Below are positions 36,230 to 46,843 of a DNA stretch of 64,000 nt, in pieces (within the stretch, counting starts at the first letter, position 1; each line of letters opens with the position of its first letter). The stretch comes from an uncultured Bacteroides sp. (lineage in GTDB: Bacteria > Bacteroidota > Bacteroidia > Bacteroidales > Bacteroidaceae). The DNA lies in the NCBI GenBank assembly GCA_959606905.1, contig CAUHML010000004.1:1-64000 (forward strand), read 5' to 3'. A model generated the notes under the pieces. It had not been told where the DNA came from. It saw only the letters and a program-made list of their open reading frames with translations, and did no database searches. A program made the position numbers and the translations under genes.

Positions 36230-37288
36230 CTACATGAGCGGAGTCTCAAAAAGGAACGTAAATGACTCACTATCTTTCAAATCCTTCACCGCATCTCCTG
36301 CATAAATCTCTCCCTTCGTCAAAGACAATTTCTTTATACCGGCTTTCGGGCTAAAGTCTATCTTTTTCAAATCAAGCCAAAACAAATTCGGCGTCAATGT
36401 GGATTCAAAATAATAGACCTTATTCTTCTGGTCGGAGACGGAACGCCAACGGGTAGAAGAAATATGAGGTTTCTCCGGAGTATTAATGCCAAATGGAACT
36501 GAAACATTACGCATCACACTCAGCACACTGGGAACAGCAATTTTTGCATCGGCAGTCTGCGGAATGGCATGAATGTAGAAAGAGGCACGGACAAAACGGT
36601 CGCTCGAACGGTTCGTTCCCGGCAACATCTGCAATCCGCCGACTTCTTTCCAGTAATCGTTGATAGCTAACTGGTATTCATACCGAGGAGAATTTGTCAT
36701 TACCTGATATTCTTTCCCTTCGTGAATGCTTAACTTTCCATCCAGATATTCCAGCACAGCCGTATTGCCTGTTTCGTCGGTGATGGCCATGTGCAAAGTA
36801 GATTCCGGTCCTCCATTCGGCATACGGGGAGCGTCAATCCGGAAAGTCTCCTTTTTCAGTTCATCAACGGCCTCACGTACAGTGGCAAAGTTATCAAGCA
36901 CGTATTGCGTCCAAATACTGATTCCCATTGCCGGACGGATATCACCGGGAAGCGAATAAATAGATTCGGGCAAGAAAAGTAGACTAGCCACCAAGCCCTT
37001 TTCATTCATACCGTCGCAAGTTCCTATATCATAACCGGTTGCAATCACACTTCCATACTTGGAAGTCCAGTTCACCGTTTTTTCCTTATTATGCCCAACA
37101 CGCTGAATGCCACGCGGGAAAACATAGATATTCGACATAATGTCTTCTTTCCAGTCCATTGTACGCCCCGTTATCACCAACTGTTCCGGGCCGAGGTAAA
37201 CGGCACGTGTACACGCCTCTACCGGCTGTATACTCATCAAAGAGAGAGCAGCCAACATCAATATAACCCCTGTCTGTTTCTTTTTCAT
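36230..37288 (-). CDS. bsh: Choloylglycine hydrolase family protein, bile salt hydrolase
   Basis: Ntn-hydrolase of 352 aa. A signal peptide (1-25, ending PVEA) would be removed to leave Cys26 as the N-terminal nucleophile (CTRAVY). The family residues Arg in GRTMDW, Asp and Asn in DGMNEKGL, Asn in MTNSPRYEYQ and the later Arg in ISSTRWRS are visible. It hydrolyses the amide of conjugated bile salts in the periplasm or outside. It corresponds by position to B. thetaiotaomicron BT_2086, a proven BSH, from memory. Confidence 0.9.
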   Translation of the reverse strand: MKKKQTGVILMLAALSLMSIQPVEACTRAVYLGPEQLVITGRTMDWKEDIMSNIYVFPRGIQRVGHNKEKTVNWTSKYGSVIATGYDIGTCDGMNEKGLVASLLFLPESIYSLPGDIRPAMGISIWTQYVLDNFATVREAVDELKKETFRIDAPRMPNGGPESTLHMAITDETGNTAVLEYLDGKLSIHEGKEYQVMTNSPRYEYQLAINDYWKEVGGLQMLPGTNRSSDRFVRASFYIHAIPQTADAKIAVPSVLSVMRNVSVPFGINTPEKPHISSTRWRSVSDQKNKVYYFESTLTPNLFWLDLKKIDFSPKAGIKKLSLTKGEIYAGDAVKDLKDSESFTFLFETPLM

Positions 37289-37338: not shown

Positions 37339-37487
37339 TAACGATTATTGCCGAAAATAAAGATGATTTTAATGAAAATAAGGGATTTGTCCAAAGAAGA
37401 CTCCCAAAGAGATATTAAATAAATTTAAGACTAATGATTGCAGTTATTCTCATCTTCTATCGTCAAAAAGATAAACATAGAACTATC

Positions 37488-38387
37488 ATGGAAAGAAAAC
37501 AAACTAAGCGGATTATAATATTCCTTCTTCTATTGCTGGGTATTATATTACCCAATATGGCACAGAAACAAAAGATATGGAAAGCATTTTGCGATAAATG
37601 CCGGAGAGAAAAAACCATTGTCGGTGCGCTTCCTTCGCAGTTAGAGAAAGCTCTACGCTGGTCGCCCGGCATTAGTAATGAGCAAAAAGAAGTGATACGT
37701 TACATATTATGGAATATGGTTTACGTAGAAGGAGGGACAGCCAATCTCGGAGAAAACAACGATTATCCTGTGAATGTGGGCTCTTTTTTCATCAACCGCT
37801 ATGAGGTAAGTCAGGATGAATGGTACGTCATTATGGGGGAGAATCCTTCCAACCAACACAGACGTAACTATCCCGTAGATCAAGTTAACTGGTATGACAC
37901 TCAACGATTCACCCGAAAACTCTCTCAGTTATCCGGCCTCCCCTTCCGTCTGCCGTTCGAAGCAGAATGGGAATATGCCGCACGTGGAGGCTTGAATACC
38001 CAAAACTACATTTATGCCGGTAGCGATGACCCGACACAAGTCGCTTGGTTTAAAGAAAAATACTCCAATGAAAACACATATGTATCCAACGATATAGGAA
38101 CCAAAAAACCCAACGAACTCGGACTTTATGATATGAGCGGAAACATCTACGAATGGTGCATGGACTGGTATGATAAAAAAGTTCCTTTCACCGGAAATAT
38201 TGATCCTGACCTGAAGGGGATTGATCTACATAAAGTGCTACGCGGAGGAAGTTATTATACTATCGCCAAATACTGCAAAATCACCAACCGTTATGGAGTC
38301 AATCCACTGCGTTGGGACATTGACTACGGATTACGGCTAGTAATATCCTTTCAGGATAACACGGAGGAAAAGAGAGTAGCCCAATAA
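37488..38387 (+). CDS. Formylglycine-generating-enzyme-like (SUMF1 fold) protein
   Basis: A 299-aa secreted protein with a hydrophobic N-terminal signal (about 9-26). The FGE-sulfatase domain spans about 80-290: MVYVEGGTANLGE, EVSQDEWYVIMG, FRLPFEAEWEYAARGG, GLYDMSGNIYEWCMDW and LRGGSYY. Only some members modify sulfatases; many Bacteroidetes homologues are gliding/secretion-like or unknown. No sulfatase gene is adjacent. The frame is open from 37434, but the ATG at 37488 precedes a normal signal peptide. Confidence 0.8.
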   Translation: MERKQTKRIIIFLLLLLGIILPNMAQKQKIWKAFCDKCRREKTIVGALPSQLEKALRWSPGISNEQKEVIRYILWNMVYVEGGTANLGENNDYPVNVGSFFINRYEVSQDEWYVIMGENPSNQHRRNYPVDQVNWYDTQRFTRKLSQLSGLPFRLPFEAEWEYAARGGLNTQNYIYAGSDDPTQVAWFKEKYSNENTYVSNDIGTKKPNELGLYDMSGNIYEWCMDWYDKKVPFTGNIDPDLKGIDLHKVLRGGSYYTIAKYCKITNRYGVNPLRWDIDYGLRLVISFQDNTEEKRVAQ

Positions 38388-38519: not shown

Positions 38520-39539
38520 TTAATCGTCAGTAGGAACTTTCATGTTCTCATAAACCTCAATCCATGAGTTCCATTCGGCAGGTGCGTCATTGGTCGCAGC
38601 AGTTTTCAGTGTACGATATTTATAGGAAAGATAAAAACGGGTGACTCCGTCTACGGTGATGTATCTGTTTGCCTGCTGGACAGACAATGCTTCATCATCA
38701 TCAGTTGTACCGGGTAATTGTACTACCTCTATCAATTCTGATTTATAAGGTTTTAGTATAAGAGTATTATATTTGGTACCATCGATATAAGTCAGTTCCT
38801 CCTCACCGATTTCCATGATAAGGCTCGACTTGTTTATTAATTCCTCTTCTGCTTTATTGGCACTGTTTTCAATGCCGGCATTCAATCTCACACCCCGTTT
38901 CGACAAGGGATATAGAATCTTATTCGCTGATATCTGTGTAGGCTTTGTATCATCTTCCCGCAGCTGAGTACCCCTCATAAATAATGTCAAAGGACTTTTC
39001 TGACTGGTAAAATCATTCTCAATATACACCTTATACAACACCCGCGACTTATCTTTATTCACTTCATAAGGAGTGCAACTGGCAATCCGTAAAGGAATCA
39101 GATAAGTGGAATCGGGAGACAATCCCTCGGTCCTAACTTCAATAGGCAACTTTACATAGGGGTCCTGATCGCCAACTTTCATCACCGCAGTATAACTTTT
39201 AATCGTATATCTGGAAGGATCCAGTTCTTTCGCGTACTTATCCTCATCCAAGTCAAAGTTATCATGATTATACTTATCAATCAAGTCAGGATCTTTTTCC
39301 AACGTTACGGTCACGTCCTGGTCAATAGCCCGTGTACCACCTGCGTAAATGGTTATATATCCAACGGAAACCGGAGTATTCAGCGAATGAGTGACCGGAA
39401 ACGTCAAGTCCGTTTCACTCAACACATACACCACCTTCTTGTATAGCTCACCTTCAAATATTGAATTTTCATTGCACGCTGTCAATCCCATTAACACGGC
39501 ACAATACATCATATATTTTGTTATTGATTTCATTCTCAT
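38520..39539 (-). CDS. DUF1735 (BT_3987-type) surface lipoprotein, SusE-like position
   Basis: A 339-aa lipoprotein (Cys22 in GLTAC). Residues about 30-150 match the DUF1735/BT_3987 N-terminal Ig-like domain (VVYVLSETDLTFPVTHSLN, then RYTIKSYTAVMKVGDQDPYVKLPIEV); the rest is a beta-rich DUF4361-like domain. Such proteins lie downstream of SusC/SusD pairs and probably bind the substrate at the surface. It is the last gene of the operon. Confidence 0.82.
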   Translation of the reverse strand: MRMKSITKYMMYCAVLMGLTACNENSIFEGELYKKVVYVLSETDLTFPVTHSLNTPVSVGYITIYAGGTRAIDQDVTVTLEKDPDLIDKYNHDNFDLDEDKYAKELDPSRYTIKSYTAVMKVGDQDPYVKLPIEVRTEGLSPDSTYLIPLRIASCTPYEVNKDKSRVLYKVYIENDFTSQKSPLTLFMRGTQLREDDTKPTQISANKILYPLSKRGVRLNAGIENSANKAEEELINKSSLIMEIGEEELTYIDGTKYNTLILKPYKSELIEVVQLPGTTDDDEALSVQQANRYITVDGVTRFYLSYKYRTLKTAATNDAPAEWNSWIEVYENMKVPTDD

Positions 39540-39564
39540 ATCAAATTTTAATTTATAGTTCCCG

Positions 39565-41589
39565 TTAATTATCCCAACCCGGATTCTGATCCATTAATGG
39601 CACTTTCCGCAATTCAGCACGGGGAATAGGCAAGAAGACCATTTTCTTATCGGCCACTCTGGTACGTGCAAAAAGATGATTGACCGTTGTTCTTTGGAAA
39701 AATTCATCTTCAAACCCGTCCGTATTCATACCTACAATCGGTTCTTTTTCCGTATCCAAATAAATACCCCAACGACGGACATCATAAAAACGTCTGTTCT
39801 CGTGAAGGAACTCAATCATGCGTTCTCTCACAATGATGTCAAACATTTTATCAGCAGAACTTAACTCATCGGTAGTCAAGCCCGGCAAACCCGCCCGATA
39901 GCGAACCATATTAAAGTATTTCGCCATTTCGTTCATATCGCGAGTATAAGTGCCCGTGCTTTCATCGCTGAAAGTCACCGTATGAGATCCGGTCAGATTA
40001 TTCAATGCTTCTACATACGAAAGTAATATTTCCGCATAACGGATAATGGGGAATGATTTAGGTAATACGGTTGCATCGGTACCACTCCAAGCATCATCAT
40101 TATGGACATATTTCTTCATCACATACCCGGTCACCGGATAATTGTTGGCGTCACCGGAACCTACCGCTTTATCCTTTCCGGAAGCCCCATAGCCACTCGC
40201 ACCTTTCCAATAATAGACATAGACATTTTTCTTCACAGCTTCACTTGTAGAAGCACAAGGCCAGAAACAACCGCTAAAACCAATCGATGCATAGAAGCGC
40301 GGTTCACGGTTTATATACATATTATAAACACCGCTCTTTAACTGGTATCCGGAGAAAGACTTCACTTCAGAAGTGAATCCGTCTTCCAGATATGGATATT
40401 CATCGCTCGAATTGGTACGATCTCTACCATCAACCATATAGTAAGCATCAATAAACTTCTGAGGGACAGCCATTCCATTATATCCTCCCATTAGCCCCAC
40501 CGGAAAAGCGTGCCGGGTATAACTACGAAGACTACCGGATGTTCTTCCCCATATATATTCCGGATTCTTAGTAGCGGTCGATTCGCCCGTAAACATATCG
40601 CTATAAGATTTATAGGGATCAATCCCCACAGCCCCTTCCGGGAAAGTTTTCGTATAATAGTTTACGTCTGATACATTGGTCGGCAATTCCGGCGTGTACT
40701 TGTCACTTTTTACGGTATGCAACTCATACATATCCATATCAATTACCCGTTTGGCAGCATGCGCAGCTACCGCCCAACGTTGCTCGTCATAAGTCTGGCT
40801 AACATAGGGAACATTGTCCGATTTACGTATCCAACCTCCGAAAGTCGTTTTCGCTGCACTTCCTCCATTGAACAAAGGACTTGCCTGTTGCAACCGTAAG
40901 CGAGCAATCAGCGCATACGCAGCTCCGCGTGTAGGACGCCCGAACTGAGATACCGTAACCCGCAAAGGAATATAATTTGCAGCAATTTCCAACTCGTTAC
41001 AGATATAATCTACTGATTCATCATACGTTGCTCTTTCCTTATTATAGTATGCAGGAGATTCATTGGTATTCATCGGCTCATCTCCCACAAGAACGACAGG
41101 ACCAAAGTTTTGAAGCAAATTATAATAAGCATAGCCTCTCATAAAATGTGCATAGCCCAGAATCTCGCGTTGTTCTATATTTGTAAGGTCTTTACATTCA
41201 TTGATTCTACTGAAAATAATATTAACCTTACGAATGATTTTATACATCTGTGCCCAGTTATTCATCGTTCCCAAGTTATCGGGAGTCGTGTGCCCCAAAA
41301 CAAATGTTACTCCGGGAAATTCGCCCGTGTTCCATTGCACAAAGGCTTCATCCGAACCGGTAACACCCGGTGTATAAGCACCACCCCAGATAGCGCCCTC
41401 ATCGGGGAAGAAAGCAGCCGTAGCCCATAGATATTTCTGAAGATTCATTTTATTCTGAAAAATAGAATCGTATCCCAATGTATCAGCAAAATACTCATCC
41501 ACATTCAAGTAATTGCAGGAGGACAGGCAAAAGTAGAACGCTGTACATAGCGTTATCATTAATCTTTTAAAATATTTCATATCATGCAT
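39565..41589 (-). CDS. SusD/RagB-family nutrient-binding lipoprotein
   Basis: Surface lipoprotein that caps the SusC channel and hands over substrate. It is 674 aa with lipobox LSSC (Cys25 from this start; an ATG three codons later is an equal candidate). The SusD-like N-terminal helical part has LRGYAY-type (MRGYAYYNLLQNFGPV) TPR motifs, and the C-terminal RagB region contains YAEILLSYVEALN and RRWGIYLD. It begins 2 bp after the susC stop. The ligand is unknown. Confidence 0.93.
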   Translation of the reverse strand: MHDMKYFKRLMITLCTAFYFCLSSCNYLNVDEYFADTLGYDSIFQNKMNLQKYLWATAAFFPDEGAIWGGAYTPGVTGSDEAFVQWNTGEFPGVTFVLGHTTPDNLGTMNNWAQMYKIIRKVNIIFSRINECKDLTNIEQREILGYAHFMRGYAYYNLLQNFGPVVLVGDEPMNTNESPAYYNKERATYDESVDYICNELEIAANYIPLRVTVSQFGRPTRGAAYALIARLRLQQASPLFNGGSAAKTTFGGWIRKSDNVPYVSQTYDEQRWAVAAHAAKRVIDMDMYELHTVKSDKYTPELPTNVSDVNYYTKTFPEGAVGIDPYKSYSDMFTGESTATKNPEYIWGRTSGSLRSYTRHAFPVGLMGGYNGMAVPQKFIDAYYMVDGRDRTNSSDEYPYLEDGFTSEVKSFSGYQLKSGVYNMYINREPRFYASIGFSGCFWPCASTSEAVKKNVYVYYWKGASGYGASGKDKAVGSGDANNYPVTGYVMKKYVHNDDAWSGTDATVLPKSFPIIRYAEILLSYVEALNNLTGSHTVTFSDESTGTYTRDMNEMAKYFNMVRYRAGLPGLTTDELSSADKMFDIIVRERMIEFLHENRRFYDVRRWGIYLDTEKEPIVGMNTDGFEDEFFQRTTVNHLFARTRVADKKMVFLPIPRAELRKVPLMDQNPGWDN

Positions 41590-41591
41590 AT

Positions 41592-44500
41592 TTAGAAATG
41601 GATATAGGTTTGAAATGCGTAACGGGCAGGAATAGGATAAACACGCCCCATTTTCTGTGCTTGTTCCGGATCTACTGTTTTCACACCGCTCCAGACTGCC
41701 AGATTATATCCCACCAATTGAAAGTCGAATGACTGTATACCCAGTCTTTTTACAAATCCCTTGGTCTTCAGGTTATAGGTTAAGCTAATTTCCTGTAAAC
41801 GTAAATAGCGCGCATTGTCTTTCCAGAAAGTAGATTTCTTAGTATTATTTTCATTCTTACCATAGGATAATCGAGGGAATGCTGCATTAGGGTTTTCCGT
41901 AGAGGGATCTCCTGAATACCAGGCTGGAGTCCAGCGATTTGCCTGAACGCCGGCTTCCACAGGTACATTACCTGTCTTTTCACCATGGAAAGGAACATAT
42001 CCCATTTCATATCCATTACCGACTTTAAAATAGGTTGTATTTCCCGTTCCTTTGAACAGACAAGCCAGTGTAAACGATTTGTAACGGAACTCTCCGCCGA
42101 ATCCATACATCAATAACGGATAGTTAGAGTAGGCCAACGGCACTTGGTCGTCTTCCGTTATACGTCCATCACCATTCACATCTTTATATTTAATATCACC
42201 CGGACGGACAGTTCCAAACTGCGACGGACTGCTCTCCACATCTTGGTCATCTCTGAACAATCCCAATGCTATGTAACCACGTTGCACTCCATACGGCATA
42301 CCGCTTATCTGCTGATAGGGATATTTTGGATCAGCCTGTTCCCAGTTCTGCACATCATTCTTCGAATAGGTAAAGTTTCCTCTGATCGTAAATGAGAAGT
42401 CTTTGCCTATATCCTGCGAATAAGAAATATTTCCGTCAGCTCCGTAGCTACGCATCTTTCCCACATTACCATAAGGCATGGTGATAATACCCGCGAAATC
42501 AGGAACCTGAGTTCTCTGCTGGAAAATACCATTTCGCTGGTCATTGAAATAATCGACCACTAAGGAGAGTTTTTCTTTGAAGAATTTCGCTTCAATACCC
42601 ACATCCGCTTTGGTTGATTTCTCCCAAGCCAGATTGTCAGCACCTACGATAGACTCGTTCACACCATTGGAATCGCTTCCCCAGCCCGTAGCCGCATTAG
42701 AATTAATAATAGTCAGATAAGGGAAGCGTTTATTGGAAATACGGTCGTTACCTACTTGTCCATACGAGAAACGGATTTTAAGAAAATCCAGCCAAGGCAC
42801 CGCTTTCCGCATGAAATCATAGTTTGTCGGCACCCAACCGATAGCTCCCGAAGGAAAGAAACCGAATTGCTTACCCGGCTCGAAGTTTTCGGAACCTGTA
42901 TAACCGAAGTTTGCATCAATGAAATAGGTATCTTTAAAACTATAAGTAATTCTTCCGGATACTCCCTGATAACGTTTGGGAATAGCGCTCATACTGTCAG
43001 TGATGTCTTTAGTCGCCTTCTCGTCACTCATGTAATAGTAAAGCAAGGCTGTTGTCCTGTGTTTATCATTGAATAACCTTTCGTAATTGGCAGTAAACTC
43101 GAAATGATATTTACGCCAATGATTCAATGTCTTACTGAATGTAGCTGCTTGAGCGTCAACTTTCTTTGCCAATTGAAGTTCTCCGGAAGTCGTTCGCCCG
43201 ATAGCCGAATACATCTCCGGCATTACAAAACGAGTCTCATCATAATATACGTCGCTATTCAACGCGCCCTGTACTTTTACTTTCAATCCTTTCAGAAGAA
43301 ATGACAAATCCTGGTTCAGAGCGAGAGTCACCATATTTTTGTAAGTCTCGCGGGTAGCCATTCCCGTATGATTAAGCATTACATAAGGTGAATAGGCATC
43401 ATTGACACCATAAGCCGGAAGTTGTCCTGTTGAAAACCTAGTAGGAATAGTCAACGGTGTCAACATTGACTGAGCATTCCAAAGTAAATCTGTGTTAGCC
43501 ATTCCCGGCTCTTTTTTATTGGATATAAATCCGTCCAACCCCAAATAGAGGGTGGTTGACTTAGTAACATTGATATCCAAATTGGTTCGATAATTATATG
43601 TGTTGTATCCTGTGTCTGCCTTGTAACGGCTGTCAGGGTCTTGAATATATGCTGCCGACTCTTTCGACATACCCATACTCACAAAATAACGGGCAATACT
43701 ACCACCTCCCTGTGCACTTACATAATAAGTCTGCTGGAAAGAAGTCTTATGCAGAATTTCGTCTTGCCAGTTTACATCCGGATACAAATCCGGGTCCAAT
43801 TGATATTGGATTAAATCCATTTCCATAGGAGAATAGAGTTCTTTCTCTCCTGAAACGACTCTGGCTTCATTGGCCAGCTTGGCGTAATCATAAGCTCTCA
43901 AATATTTAGGTAACCGCTTCAACTGTGAAATAGTAAAATTGGCACGGGCTGTAATTTTGAGTTTTTCTACTGTTCCCCGCTTGGTCGTTACAAGAATTAC
44001 TCCGTTAGCACCACGAACACCGTAAACCGCCGTTGCAGAAGCATCTTTTAAAACAGAAAAGCTCTCTACGTCAGCAGGATCAACCTGACTCAAATCGCCT
44101 TCCAAACCGTCAATCAACACCAAAGCCGAACTATTAGCACCAAATGTTCCTATACCGCGAACCCAAAATTCCGAGATATTTTTACCCGGTTCACCACTCG
44201 ACTGGATAGAGATAACTCCCGGCACTCTACCTCCCAAAGAGTTATTCAGTGAAGTGGCCGGAACAGCAAGGTCACCAATATCCACGCTTGTGATAGCTCC
44301 TACTACGCTCACTTTACGCTGGGTTCCCATACCCACCACTACTACTTCGTCCAAAGCAGTAGCAGAAGGAGTCATTTTAAGAACCAGGTTTGTCTGGCTA
44401 TCGGTAACGAAATACTCTATCTTATCATATCCGATATAATTAACGATCAGTACATCGCCTTTATGTGCCTGAACTTTAAATCTACCATCCAAATCGGTCG

Positions 44501-44672
44501 TTGTACCTACGCCCGGACGGTCTTTCAAGAATATATTAGCGCCGATAATCGGTTCCTTATCGGACGACTTATCGACAACTATACCCGAAATAGTCAGCGA
44601 TTTCCCCGCTTTTTGAGCCATGACGCCCAAACAGCATAAAAGTAAAATTTGAATAATATATAATTTTCTCAT
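41592..44672 (-). CDS. SusC/RagA-family TonB-linked outer-membrane transporter
   Basis: A 1026-aa receptor: signal peptide (to about MAQ), a CarboxypepD_reg-like domain at about 25-110, a plug domain at about 115-235 (VVVVGMGTQRK, then LIDGLEGDL, and ATAVYGVRGANGVILVTTK), and a large barrel ending in the C-terminal aromatic FQTYIHF. Works with the following SusD. It is the second gene of the operon after the NHL lipoprotein, 21 bp away. Confidence 0.95.
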   Translation of the reverse strand: MRKLYIIQILLLCCLGVMAQKAGKSLTISGIVVDKSSDKEPIIGANIFLKDRPGVGTTTDLDGRFKVQAHKGDVLIVNYIGYDKIEYFVTDSQTNLVLKMTPSATALDEVVVVGMGTQRKVSVVGAITSVDIGDLAVPATSLNNSLGGRVPGVISIQSSGEPGKNISEFWVRGIGTFGANSSALVLIDGLEGDLSQVDPADVESFSVLKDASATAVYGVRGANGVILVTTKRGTVEKLKITARANFTISQLKRLPKYLRAYDYAKLANEARVVSGEKELYSPMEMDLIQYQLDPDLYPDVNWQDEILHKTSFQQTYYVSAQGGGSIARYFVSMGMSKESAAYIQDPDSRYKADTGYNTYNYRTNLDINVTKSTTLYLGLDGFISNKKEPGMANTDLLWNAQSMLTPLTIPTRFSTGQLPAYGVNDAYSPYVMLNHTGMATRETYKNMVTLALNQDLSFLLKGLKVKVQGALNSDVYYDETRFVMPEMYSAIGRTTSGELQLAKKVDAQAATFSKTLNHWRKYHFEFTANYERLFNDKHRTTALLYYYMSDEKATKDITDSMSAIPKRYQGVSGRITYSFKDTYFIDANFGYTGSENFEPGKQFGFFPSGAIGWVPTNYDFMRKAVPWLDFLKIRFSYGQVGNDRISNKRFPYLTIINSNAATGWGSDSNGVNESIVGADNLAWEKSTKADVGIEAKFFKEKLSLVVDYFNDQRNGIFQQRTQVPDFAGIITMPYGNVGKMRSYGADGNISYSQDIGKDFSFTIRGNFTYSKNDVQNWEQADPKYPYQQISGMPYGVQRGYIALGLFRDDQDVESSPSQFGTVRPGDIKYKDVNGDGRITEDDQVPLAYSNYPLLMYGFGGEFRYKSFTLACLFKGTGNTTYFKVGNGYEMGYVPFHGEKTGNVPVEAGVQANRWTPAWYSGDPSTENPNAAFPRLSYGKNENNTKKSTFWKDNARYLRLQEISLTYNLKTKGFVKRLGIQSFDFQLVGYNLAVWSGVKTVDPEQAQKMGRVYPIPARYAFQTYIHF

Positions 44673-44693
44673 GTTGAATTAGTGATAAACAGG

Positions 44694-45974
44694 TTACTGA
44701 ATAGCAAGTTTTCTAATACACTTATTTTTAGTATCTGCAATGTAAATTGTACCTTCTTCATCCACAGCTACTCCCCAAGGCTCATCAAATAAAGCGTCAT
44801 CCGGCGTACCGTCTACATAGCCGGCTCTGCCCGGGACACCAATTACAGTACTTACTGCTCCTTCCCGGTCAATCGAACGAATACAATGATTACTGGAATC
44901 TGCAATATACATGATTCCGTCTAAGTCGAAACATATCTGTGAAGGGAAATTAAATCGTGCGTTCAAACGTTTTCCGTCCTCATAGCCAGGATCTTCTCTT
45001 GCTCCTGCATACAATTCATAATTTCCGGTAGAAAGTTCATAGCGATAAATACAATGCTTGCTCCGATAACAAATATAGAGCACATCCGGATCGAGACTAT
45101 CAAAACAACAGATAGCATCATAAGTCCAACCCGCATCCAGCCCCGTAGTAACTAGTTCTGCTTCCTTACTCTTAGGATCCATTTTAGCCAAGTTTCCATT
45201 TAATGCCTTTATATACACCAGTTTATCTTCCGGATTAACAGCAGCGGATATATATTGGTCTAATGTTACATTCTGTGGCTTCACCTGTTTTTTAGCCCAT
45301 TGTGTTTCCGGATCAAATTGTAACAAATTACCTCCTTGTACCCAAAGCGGTAAAAAGACTTTCTGCCCTTCTGTTTCAACCATTGGAATAAATGGAGCTG
45401 TAATATTTGTAGCTAATGTAGTTACCATATTTTGTTGCTCATTTATCTGGCGTAAACGATAACTGGACCTTTCGCAAACAAATATATTTTTCTCACGATC
45501 TACGCAAACAAAATGAGTCAATCCGAACTGAGCTGCCGCCAATGTTCCGTCAACTGCATTTACTTCCGTTCGCGGCGTTCCCGTAATCGTACTTACAGTA
45601 ACCTGTGTCTTATACGAAAACTGCTGTTCAAAACTGGCTTTATCTTTACCTACTTCTACTGTAATAGTGCAATTATCTCCCGGTTGCCGAGGAGTAATGA
45701 CATAAATTTTAGTTCCTATGGAACGTACCACTGCCGCTTGTTTTTCATTGTAGAATACTTTTATCTGCGAAAGATCAGTTCCGAAATTTTCTCCATTAAT
45801 AATAACTTTCGTTGCCATTCCCCCATTTTCAGGGTAAAAAGAGGTTAGTTTAATCGGTTGATTTGGATCATAAGGTTTGCCTGTTGTGCCACCTTCTTCT
45901 GAATCACTTTTACATGCTGAAAGAAAGGTTATCAGCATTGCAAATAAAATAGTTACCAAAGATGTTTTTCTCAT
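44694..45974 (-). CDS. IPT/TIG and NHL-repeat surface lipoprotein
   Basis: A 426-aa lipoprotein (Cys21 in LSAC followed by KSDSEEGG). An IPT/TIG Ig-like domain at about 38-125 (SFYPENGGMATKVIINGENFG) precedes a beta-propeller with NHL repeats, clearest in the last third (DLDGIMYIADSSNHCIRSID and VDEEGTIYIADTKNKCIRKL). It is first in the susC/susD operon, so it is probably a surface ligand-binding component of the same uptake system. Its 5' flank leads to the inverted-repeat promoter cassette at 46299-46651. Confidence 0.85.
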   Translation of the reverse strand: MRKTSLVTILFAMLITFLSACKSDSEEGGTTGKPYDPNQPIKLTSFYPENGGMATKVIINGENFGTDLSQIKVFYNEKQAAVVRSIGTKIYVITPRQPGDNCTITVEVGKDKASFEQQFSYKTQVTVSTITGTPRTEVNAVDGTLAAAQFGLTHFVCVDREKNIFVCERSSYRLRQINEQQNMVTTLATNITAPFIPMVETEGQKVFLPLWVQGGNLLQFDPETQWAKKQVKPQNVTLDQYISAAVNPEDKLVYIKALNGNLAKMDPKSKEAELVTTGLDAGWTYDAICCFDSLDPDVLYICYRSKHCIYRYELSTGNYELYAGAREDPGYEDGKRLNARFNFPSQICFDLDGIMYIADSSNHCIRSIDREGAVSTVIGVPGRAGYVDGTPDDALFDEPWGVAVDEEGTIYIADTKNKCIRKLAIQ

Positions 45975-46298
45975 TACTATTATTTCATTTATTAAATTAA
46001 TGATCCTATTTAATAGTTTATCAGTTTTTTATCCTATGAAAGGAAGATCAAATAAACTTTTAAACCAAGATCAAAGGTTAACGATTAATCGAAATCCATC
46101 AGTTTTTTGGGGACCTGACTGGAATCAATTTTAGAGAATAAGCCTGTTAACACTCCTTTGAAGTATCAACATGTTTGCCTTTGTTTTTGAATTTTCATTT
46201 CCAAAATTCATAATTCATAAGATAAGCGGAGGTTTTCTTTTCATAAGCATTTCTTGATTTAGTTAATAAAAAATTAGTCGAATATCCTTTGCTTGTTA
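45975..46298. other. AT-rich leader between operon start and the inverted-repeat cassette
   Basis: No open frame with gene-like features is present. The best minus-strand -7-like sequence is TAACCTTTG (46080-46072), which has three instead of two bases between TA and TTTG. The region may be a long untranslated leader when transcription starts in the neighbouring cassette. Confidence 0.4.
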
Positions 46299-46321
46299 CT
46301 AAGTTCTACTTGAACTTAGGT
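46299..46321 (+). repeat. Left inverted repeat of the promoter cassette (IR-L)
   Basis: Twenty-three bases identical, in reverse complement, to 46629-46651. The core is CTAAGTTC-TACTT-GAACTTAG, itself a dyad with 8-bp arms around a 5-bp asymmetric centre, the layout of a recombinase crossover site. Confidence 0.85.
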
Positions 46322-46473
46322 TATAAACTGAAAAAGAAAGCCCTGTGCTACTCTCACTTGAATAATACGGTAGATATATTAGATCGAAATATAGTCATGG
46401 ACTATTTTAGGCATGAAAATCACTGGCAAAGTTCACAAAAGAAAAAAAATAATAATAAAACAATTTATTATAT

Positions 46474-46503
46474 ATTGTTATATAATAAAATATTGTATAT
46501 TTG
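46474..46503 (+). promoter_or_regulatory. Promoter inside the invertible cassette
   Basis: ATTG (46474-46477), an 18-bp spacer and TATATTTG (46496-46503), followed by C. In the given orientation it fires rightwards into a gene-free stretch ended by the hairpin at 46811-46843. Confidence 0.65.
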
Positions 46504-46628
46504 CATTCGAGAATATTAAATATTTGCACAAGACACAAGAAGGCTATATAAAAATAAATACAGAGAAAGTACATTTAAACATCCAAATAATATTTAAGGT
46601 ACTTATTTTTTATTATTTATTACCTTTT

Positions 46629-46651
46629 ACCTAAGTTCAAGTAGAACTTAG
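46629..46651 (-). repeat. Right inverted repeat of the promoter cassette (IR-R)
   Basis: Perfect reverse complement of 46299-46321. The core is CTAAGTTC-AAGTA-GAACTTAG, with the central five bases inverted relative to the left copy. Confidence 0.85.
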
Positions 46652-46810
46652 GCATTTTTTAGCATTTGATTCAGTGTACTCGATCAAAGTTTCATAGAAT
46701 CGCGTTATCTTTTTGAATACCAACAATATACATTACGCGAACGTCTTAATCTTAATAATTACAAATATCAGAAATTAGTTACATTTTCCCTAAATGCTTC
46801 CACTATTATG

Positions 46811-46843
46811 AAAAAAAGTTCTCACTGTAGTGAGAACTTTTTT
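46811..46843. terminator. Bidirectional terminator between topB and the cassette
   Basis: AAAAAAGTTCTCACT paired with AGTGAGAACTTTTTT (15 bp with almost no loop, so about 14 bp usable). It ends topB transcripts and would stop rightward transcripts from the cassette promoter. Confidence 0.85.

Follow-up and report, generated by a model that had tools for sequence, protein, structure and literature searches.

A candidate invertible SusC/SusD promoter of Bacteroides carrying a NanR-type operator between its inverted repeats

Phase variation is usually treated as nutrient-blind, and sugar regulators are treated as acting in every cell. Nakayama-Imaohji et al. are said to have given, in 2009, the consensus AGTYYYN4GDACT for the sites of Tsr0667, a recombinase of Bacteroides fragilis. 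Three SusC/SusD clusters and a further nine regions are described as the targets of Tsr0667 (PMC4747536; also PMC11852207), and the Bacteroides −7 consensus is given as TAnnTTTG (PMC4747536). Other invertible promoters of Bacteroides lie between inverted repeats and are flipped by Mpi or by local recombinases with GTTAC repeats. The targets of these promoters are capsule genes (PMC4747536). For sialic acid utilization, two further papers describe NanR of Bacteroides thetaiotaomicron as BT0433, a ROK-family regulator associated with sialic acid and N-acetylglucosamine (PMC3878776), and report that deletion of nanR in B. fragilis renders the aldolase constitutive (PMC3969230).

We analyzed a 64,000-nucleotide stretch of DNA from an uncultured Bacteroides sp., referred to as the window throughout. 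It carries a four-gene SusC/SusD operon at 38520 to 45974, entirely on the minus strand and composed of open reading frames, which reads as claimed in the first-pass annotation. Upstream of it lies the segment of interest. The features are as follows.

38520 to 39539, minus strand: protein with BT_3987-like N-terminal and BT_3044-like C-terminal domains, 339 aa
39565 to 41589, minus strand: SusD-family protein, 674 aa
41592 to 44672, minus strand: SusC/RagA TonB-linked outer-membrane protein, 1026 aa
44694 to 45974, minus strand: TIG/NHL-repeat protein, 426 aa, first gene of the operon
45975 to 46298, minus strand: leader, from the left arm to the first gene, predicted to be transcribed when the switch is ON
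46299 to 46651, no strand: candidate invertible segment, its inversion predicted from relatives
46299 to 46321, plus strand: left arm, half-site CTAAGTTC-TACTT-GAACTTAG
46453 to 46470, no strand: NanR-type operator TAATAAA-N4-TTTATTA, exact, with its center 34 bp upstream of the −7 element
46475 to 46503, plus strand: promoter TTG-N18-TATATTTG, with the −7 element at 46496 to 46503
46629 to 46651, minus strand: right arm, with a core identical to that of the left arm on the other strand
46630 to 46662, plus strand: right arm and T-run, terminator-like, on the OFF side
46812 to 46843, no strand: second hairpin, between the switch and a topoisomerase gene

A choloylglycine-hydrolase-family gene (bile salt hydrolase-like) is located at 36230 to 37288, just past the end of the operon, and a gene with a sulfatase-modifying-factor domain (37434 to 38387) lies between the two.

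The two arms are 23 nt each and 100% complementary at a spacing of 307 nt, and each is a dyad, CTAAGTTC-N5-GAACTTAG, around an asymmetric 5-bp core, which confirms both the perfect repeats and the dyad structure described in the first-pass annotation. They form the sole perfect inverted repeat of at least 14 bp with arms 60 to 1,500 bp apart in the whole window, and the longest inverted repeat in 40 first-order Markov versions of the window was 16 bp. When up to three mismatches are permitted, the half-site is present at two places in the window, both of them exact (shuffled versions average 0.30 matches, and two were reached in 2 of 100 shuffles). A search of viral contigs for an exact copy of 22 arm bases returned none. 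The promoter at 46475 to 46503 follows the Bacteroides pattern of TTG followed by TAnnTTTG; sigma-70-style promoters were found 5 times, against 6.6 in shuffles. In the sequenced orientation this plus-strand promoter is directed away from the operon and into the right arm, which together with the six T's that follow scores as a terminator, in agreement with the orientation and terminator proposed earlier. Transcription passing the right arm would reach the hairpin at 46812 to 46843 (−16.5 kcal/mol; z −3.8), for which Rfam gave three matches near 46809, every one under the gathering score. In silico inversion places the end of the −7 element 472 nt ahead of the operon's first start codon, in line with the leader of ∼465 nt that had been predicted. 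The OFF-side T-run was also considered as a general terminator of such switches and rejected, as a comparable run is found, among the segments compared, only at the window locus and at L160 and L164, two loci that are 99% alike.

The locus resembles the regions under Tsr0667 control in that a promoter is located between the arms, a SusC/SusD operon adjoins them, and AGTTCTACTTGAACT, present in both arms in inverted orientation, fits the consensus attributed to that enzyme. It is unlike those regions in that the segment contains a sugar-regulator operator. With the capsule switches it shares an invertible-type promoter between inverted repeats, although the repeats differ, and its target is a SusC/SusD operon. 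A local capsule switch of the GTTAC type was rejected, as the arms have the form CTAAGTTC-N5-GAACTTAG and the window is without a recombinase when searched by tblastn with 30 recombinases as queries, all taken from the nearest genome (G001).

G001 has 90% of sampled words in common with the window, and its copy of the locus is 99% identical and in the same orientation, the inner 307 bases differing by five substitutions. The first-pass annotation had suggested that further copies of the repeats, and a recombinase gene beside one, would be informative, and both are present in G001. Seven pairs of the site class have SusC-like genes adjoining in all seven cases, an eighth pair flanks a recombinase gene, and a ninth (at L266) has a fucosidase gene on one side and a SusC/SusD operon on the other, giving a total of nine segments of the class, each adjoining SusC-like genes. 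Among 158 genomes of the genus, the pair pattern with a gap of 300 to 330 bp is found at 11 places in nine genomes, and nowhere in the control. The core bases are matched within the pair in all 15 pairs that were picked blind to the core, with 12 different cores represented, although some of these pairs are orthologs. Strand exchange by tyrosine recombinases needs matching cores, and matched cores within pairs are thus the pattern expected of separate working switches. We note that one class segment, L087:9220-9659 (G001:C1:1922219-1922658), is flanked by two divergent SusC/SusD operons, and the regions upstream of these operons form long inverted repeats in their own right; this segment might choose between the two operons.

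There are 33 phage-integrase family matches in G001, and the loci of 30 were examined. Ten of these recombinases are beside GTTAC...GTAAC repeats, and only one gene, coding for a 397-aa tyrosine recombinase with an open reading frame, is flanked by the window's site class, in the form of 46-bp perfect repeats that contain AGTCTTTGCAGAACT and are each located at the 5′ end of one of two divergent susC genes. This arrangement, with the recombinase gene between divergent susC genes and the site inverted on both sides, is like that of the Tsr0667 system, and the protein is a candidate Tsr0667-type recombinase by virtue of this gene context. Of 31 named loci encoding relatives of the 397-aa protein, 18 have the motif inverted on both sides, including those of B. 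fragilis and Bacteroides salyersiae; the 18 include a pair of loci from each of two genomes. Presence of the recombinase at any level of relatedness is not associated with more sites across 149 genomes (P = 0.27). At a threshold of at least 70% identity, which was our own choice, the 37 genomes with the recombinase have 151 sites (control, 29; P = 8e-7 versus genomes without it), and the same comparison among genomes at least 90% complete gives P = 5e-4. The 54 genomes with a more distant recombinase have 41 sites versus 53 in the control, and thus no excess, and those without one have 56 sites versus 29. An ortholog of the G001 397-aa protein is the likely invertase of the window segment. The gene for this likely invertase lies inside its own 2.5-kb invertible-looking segment (L093:12855-15392; G001:C1:92854-95391), the inversion of which would swap which of the two divergent susC genes is expressed.

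Inversion at the arms is supported for this class by comparisons between species. In a sister species, G083, the NHL protein is 96% identical to that of the window, and the operon promoter is inverted such that it faces the operon. The G083 region aligns with the in silico inverted window as a single 616-bp stretch at 88.8%, whereas against the window as sequenced it aligns as two stretches on opposite strands. One of the G083 arms is unrecognizable and the other has changes, and the promoter looks to be locked ON. A second example is the switch in the nan cluster (L089:9366-9705; G001:C1:2761365-2761704), behind which lie nanOU-like uptake genes and a sialidase. In G083 and G092 the arms of this switch are intact. 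The two genomes align across its flanks at 87% and 82%, and the intervening segment, at 83% identity, runs opposite to the flanks, with the arms as breakpoints. The G001 arrangement is as in G092; the nan switch is OFF in G001, G087, and G092 and ON in G083. The two orientations of the window segment are thus seen between species (the window versus G083) rather than within one, the window and G001 both being OFF. The proposal that 46299 to 46651 is an invertible promoter, and that the sequence shows its OFF state, is supported by these two inversions, by the site class beside SusC genes, and by the recombinase in G001.

The promoter core of the switch led to similar stretches elsewhere, with 32 of 158 genomes having some match to the segment. 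Those inspected precede genes for, among others, DUF4434 proteins, MFS sugar transporters, and FAD-dependent oxidoreductase-like proteins; the oxidoreductase label was assigned from sequence without a domain scan. In five fetched regions the match is divergent from a ROK-type regulator gene coding for 403 to 404 aa, and the three of these regulators that were scanned are ROK proteins. The operator pattern, TAATAAA-N4-TTTATTA, was drawn by eye from promoters similar to the window's and differs in origin from the published motif; the tests at nanR consequently carry the weight. In 24 of 30 regulator loci (the subset of genome-search matches for which loci were given), the exact operator is present within 500 bp upstream of NanR, as compared with a mean of 0.0 in 100 shuffled sets.

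In G001, the nan cluster is headed by the NanR ortholog, a ROK regulator, followed in order by a YhcH-type protein, an MFS transporter, an N-acetylneuraminate-lyase-like protein, a GlcNAc 2-epimerase, the nan switch (one of the seven class switches), SusC, a NanU-like SusD, and a sialidase; the NCBIfam matches for the lyase, epimerase, and NanU are under the curated cutoffs. The exact operator has four sites in this genome, two of them between nanR and yhcH, one in the window's switch (G001:4475606), and one in the fucosidase-side switch. In this last switch, L266:5695-5982 (G001:C1:3316695-3316982), which separates an alpha-L-fucosidase gene from a SusC/SusD operon, the −7 element is directed away from SusC. 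Operator and promoter at fixed spacing are found three times in G001, once at nanR and twice in invertible promoters, the window's included. The nan switch of G001, G083, G087, and G092 carries the operator with one mismatch, and that of G013 carries it exactly. The window switch, four nan switches, and the L266 switch all have the operator center 34 to 38 bp upstream of a −7 element, and the same spacing is found before yhcH, before the MFS gene, and in six promoters from other genomes; the operator ahead of the sialidase gene gave no match to this spacing. With the NanR (ROK) regulon of Bacteroides (PMC3878776; PMC3969230), G001 shares a ROK regulator at the head of a nan cluster and, by our own pattern, one operator common to nanR and the window promoter. 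It is unlike that regulon in that the operator lies inside invertible segments, and the available portions of the two papers make no mention of invertible promoters.

We consider it probable that the window segment is an invertible SusC/SusD promoter flipped by a Tsr0667-type tyrosine recombinase and placed under two-key control by a NanR operator. The recombinase, presumably an ortholog of the 397-aa G001 protein, would exchange strands between the arms and flip the segment. In the OFF state the promoter would have the operon behind it and would read into the right-arm terminator, and in the ON state it would drive the NHL-SusC-SusD operon through its leader. NanR, bound directly upstream of the −33 element, would presumably act as a repressor, to be relieved by sialic acid or one of its derivatives. 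Because the operator is within the segment at the spacing of nan promoters, expression in ON cells is expected to need NanR's permission, and would presumably occur with sialic acid or a related amino sugar; orientation would decide which cells can respond, and NanR would decide when. The parts and their spacing, the site class, and inversion between species are read directly from the sequences; from these we infer that the segment flips in this strain, which enzyme acts on it, that NanR binds, and what the inducer is.

A plain invertible SusC/SusD promoter free of any further regulator, in which the palindrome is merely AT-rich promoter sequence, would be another account, and one that we consider unlikely. 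It is consistent with the 77% AT content of the segment, and with the genome-wide counts of the palindrome by itself at one mismatch or fewer, which are hardly above control (18 versus 14 in G001; 151 versus 129 in 11 genomes). The operator is also absent from most other switches of the class: five of the eight scored in G001 (L085, L086, L087, L088, and L090; the recombinase segment is outside the eight) have none at two mismatches, and most of those scored in other genomes have none, including that of a distantly related NHL operon in G134. However, the exact site arises in the inner segment in just 10 of 20,000 shuffles, and its distance from the −7 element equals that of the nan promoters. 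The operator and −7 element at fixed spacing have 58 matches in 46 of the 158 genomes versus 0 in the control, and of the 51 that fall in genomes where nanR was located, 41 are no more than 3 kb from that gene (the other seven of the 58 are in genomes outside the nanR list). Moreover, both of the exact G001 sites away from nanR are inside invertible promoters.

The remaining alternatives concern the recombination itself. An active switch could be flipped by a different tyrosine recombinase or by a serine invertase, which is about as doubtful as the regulator-free promoter: the 33 integrase-family matches, 30 of them examined, come from a search that was tyrosine-type throughout, and genomes without the 397-aa family do show a mild excess of sites, but the site class flanks the 397-aa gene alone among those examined, and the strongest excess is found where a close ortholog is present. 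We regard as very improbable that the segment is an inactive fossil, stuck OFF in this species with arms that now serve as terminator hairpins. The single orientation of the two near-identical genomes (the window and G001), the terminator-like right arm, and the decayed arms of G083 are what a fossil would predict; against this, the 23-bp arms are perfect and their cores identical despite the five inner substitutions between the window and G001, the recombinase frame is open in G001, and the operon genes are still open reading frames.

Although the basic switch device is of an already known kind, the exact TAATAAA-N4-TTTATTA operator within an invertible segment, which the first-pass annotation does not mention, seems to be new. 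A search of titles and the starts of abstracts, with most subscription journals outside its coverage, found none joining an operator for NanR or another sugar regulator with invertible SusC/SusD promoters, which is weak evidence of novelty. We also lean toward the broader view, with rather less confidence than for the window switch, that the three G001 invertible promoters with a NanR operator form part of a sialic-acid regulon placed behind DNA switches, such that the population would be presplit; these three promoters serve the nanOU-like genes and sialidase (one mismatch), the SusC/SusD operon by the fucosidase gene (exact), and the window operon (exact). A promoter that carries its own sugar-sensor operator while flipping would join phase variation and sugar regulation. 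A clonal population would then be split beforehand into responders and nonresponders to one host sugar, the sensor having an effect in ON cells alone, and responses to sialic acid or mucin glycans would be mixed in clonal cultures. Among the regions that differ most in orientation between inflammatory bowel disease patients and controls, some are described as lying in or near SusC/SusD genes (PMC10939037), and the switch loci listed here provide a short list for reading orientation in gut metagenomes.

Among 15 segments that could be scored for orientation, 14 are OFF (L085, L086, L088, L089, L090, L092, L157, L166, L268, L269, L270, L272, L273, and L279) and one is ON (L163), although several are mutually orthologous and hence are not independent events. 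The 15 were kept from 29 by requiring that a complete promoter motif point one way and that SusC lie mainly to one side; the others lack the full motif (L087, L158, L159, L160, L161, L164, L271, L275, and L276), have SusC on both sides (L093, L162, L274, and L277), or have a single arm (L278). Of those retained, L085 has a second SusC ∼4 kb off on the opposite side, and L086, L269, and L273 have short SusC-like pieces there. Outside the count, L311 has its −7 element directed away from SusC, as does L266. In B. fragilis, one promoter is described as ∼1% ON in an inoculum and a second, acted on by the same enzyme, as ∼60% ON (PMC4747536), and it is thus plausible that OFF is the default in culture, though not generally so. 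The excess of OFF segments could also mean that inversion is rare. One further observation concerns L278:58 (G010:C156), where the contig starts 57 bases ahead of a half-site that has the nan-switch core and an adjoining SusC gene; the assembly break at this point might reflect reads of mixed orientation.
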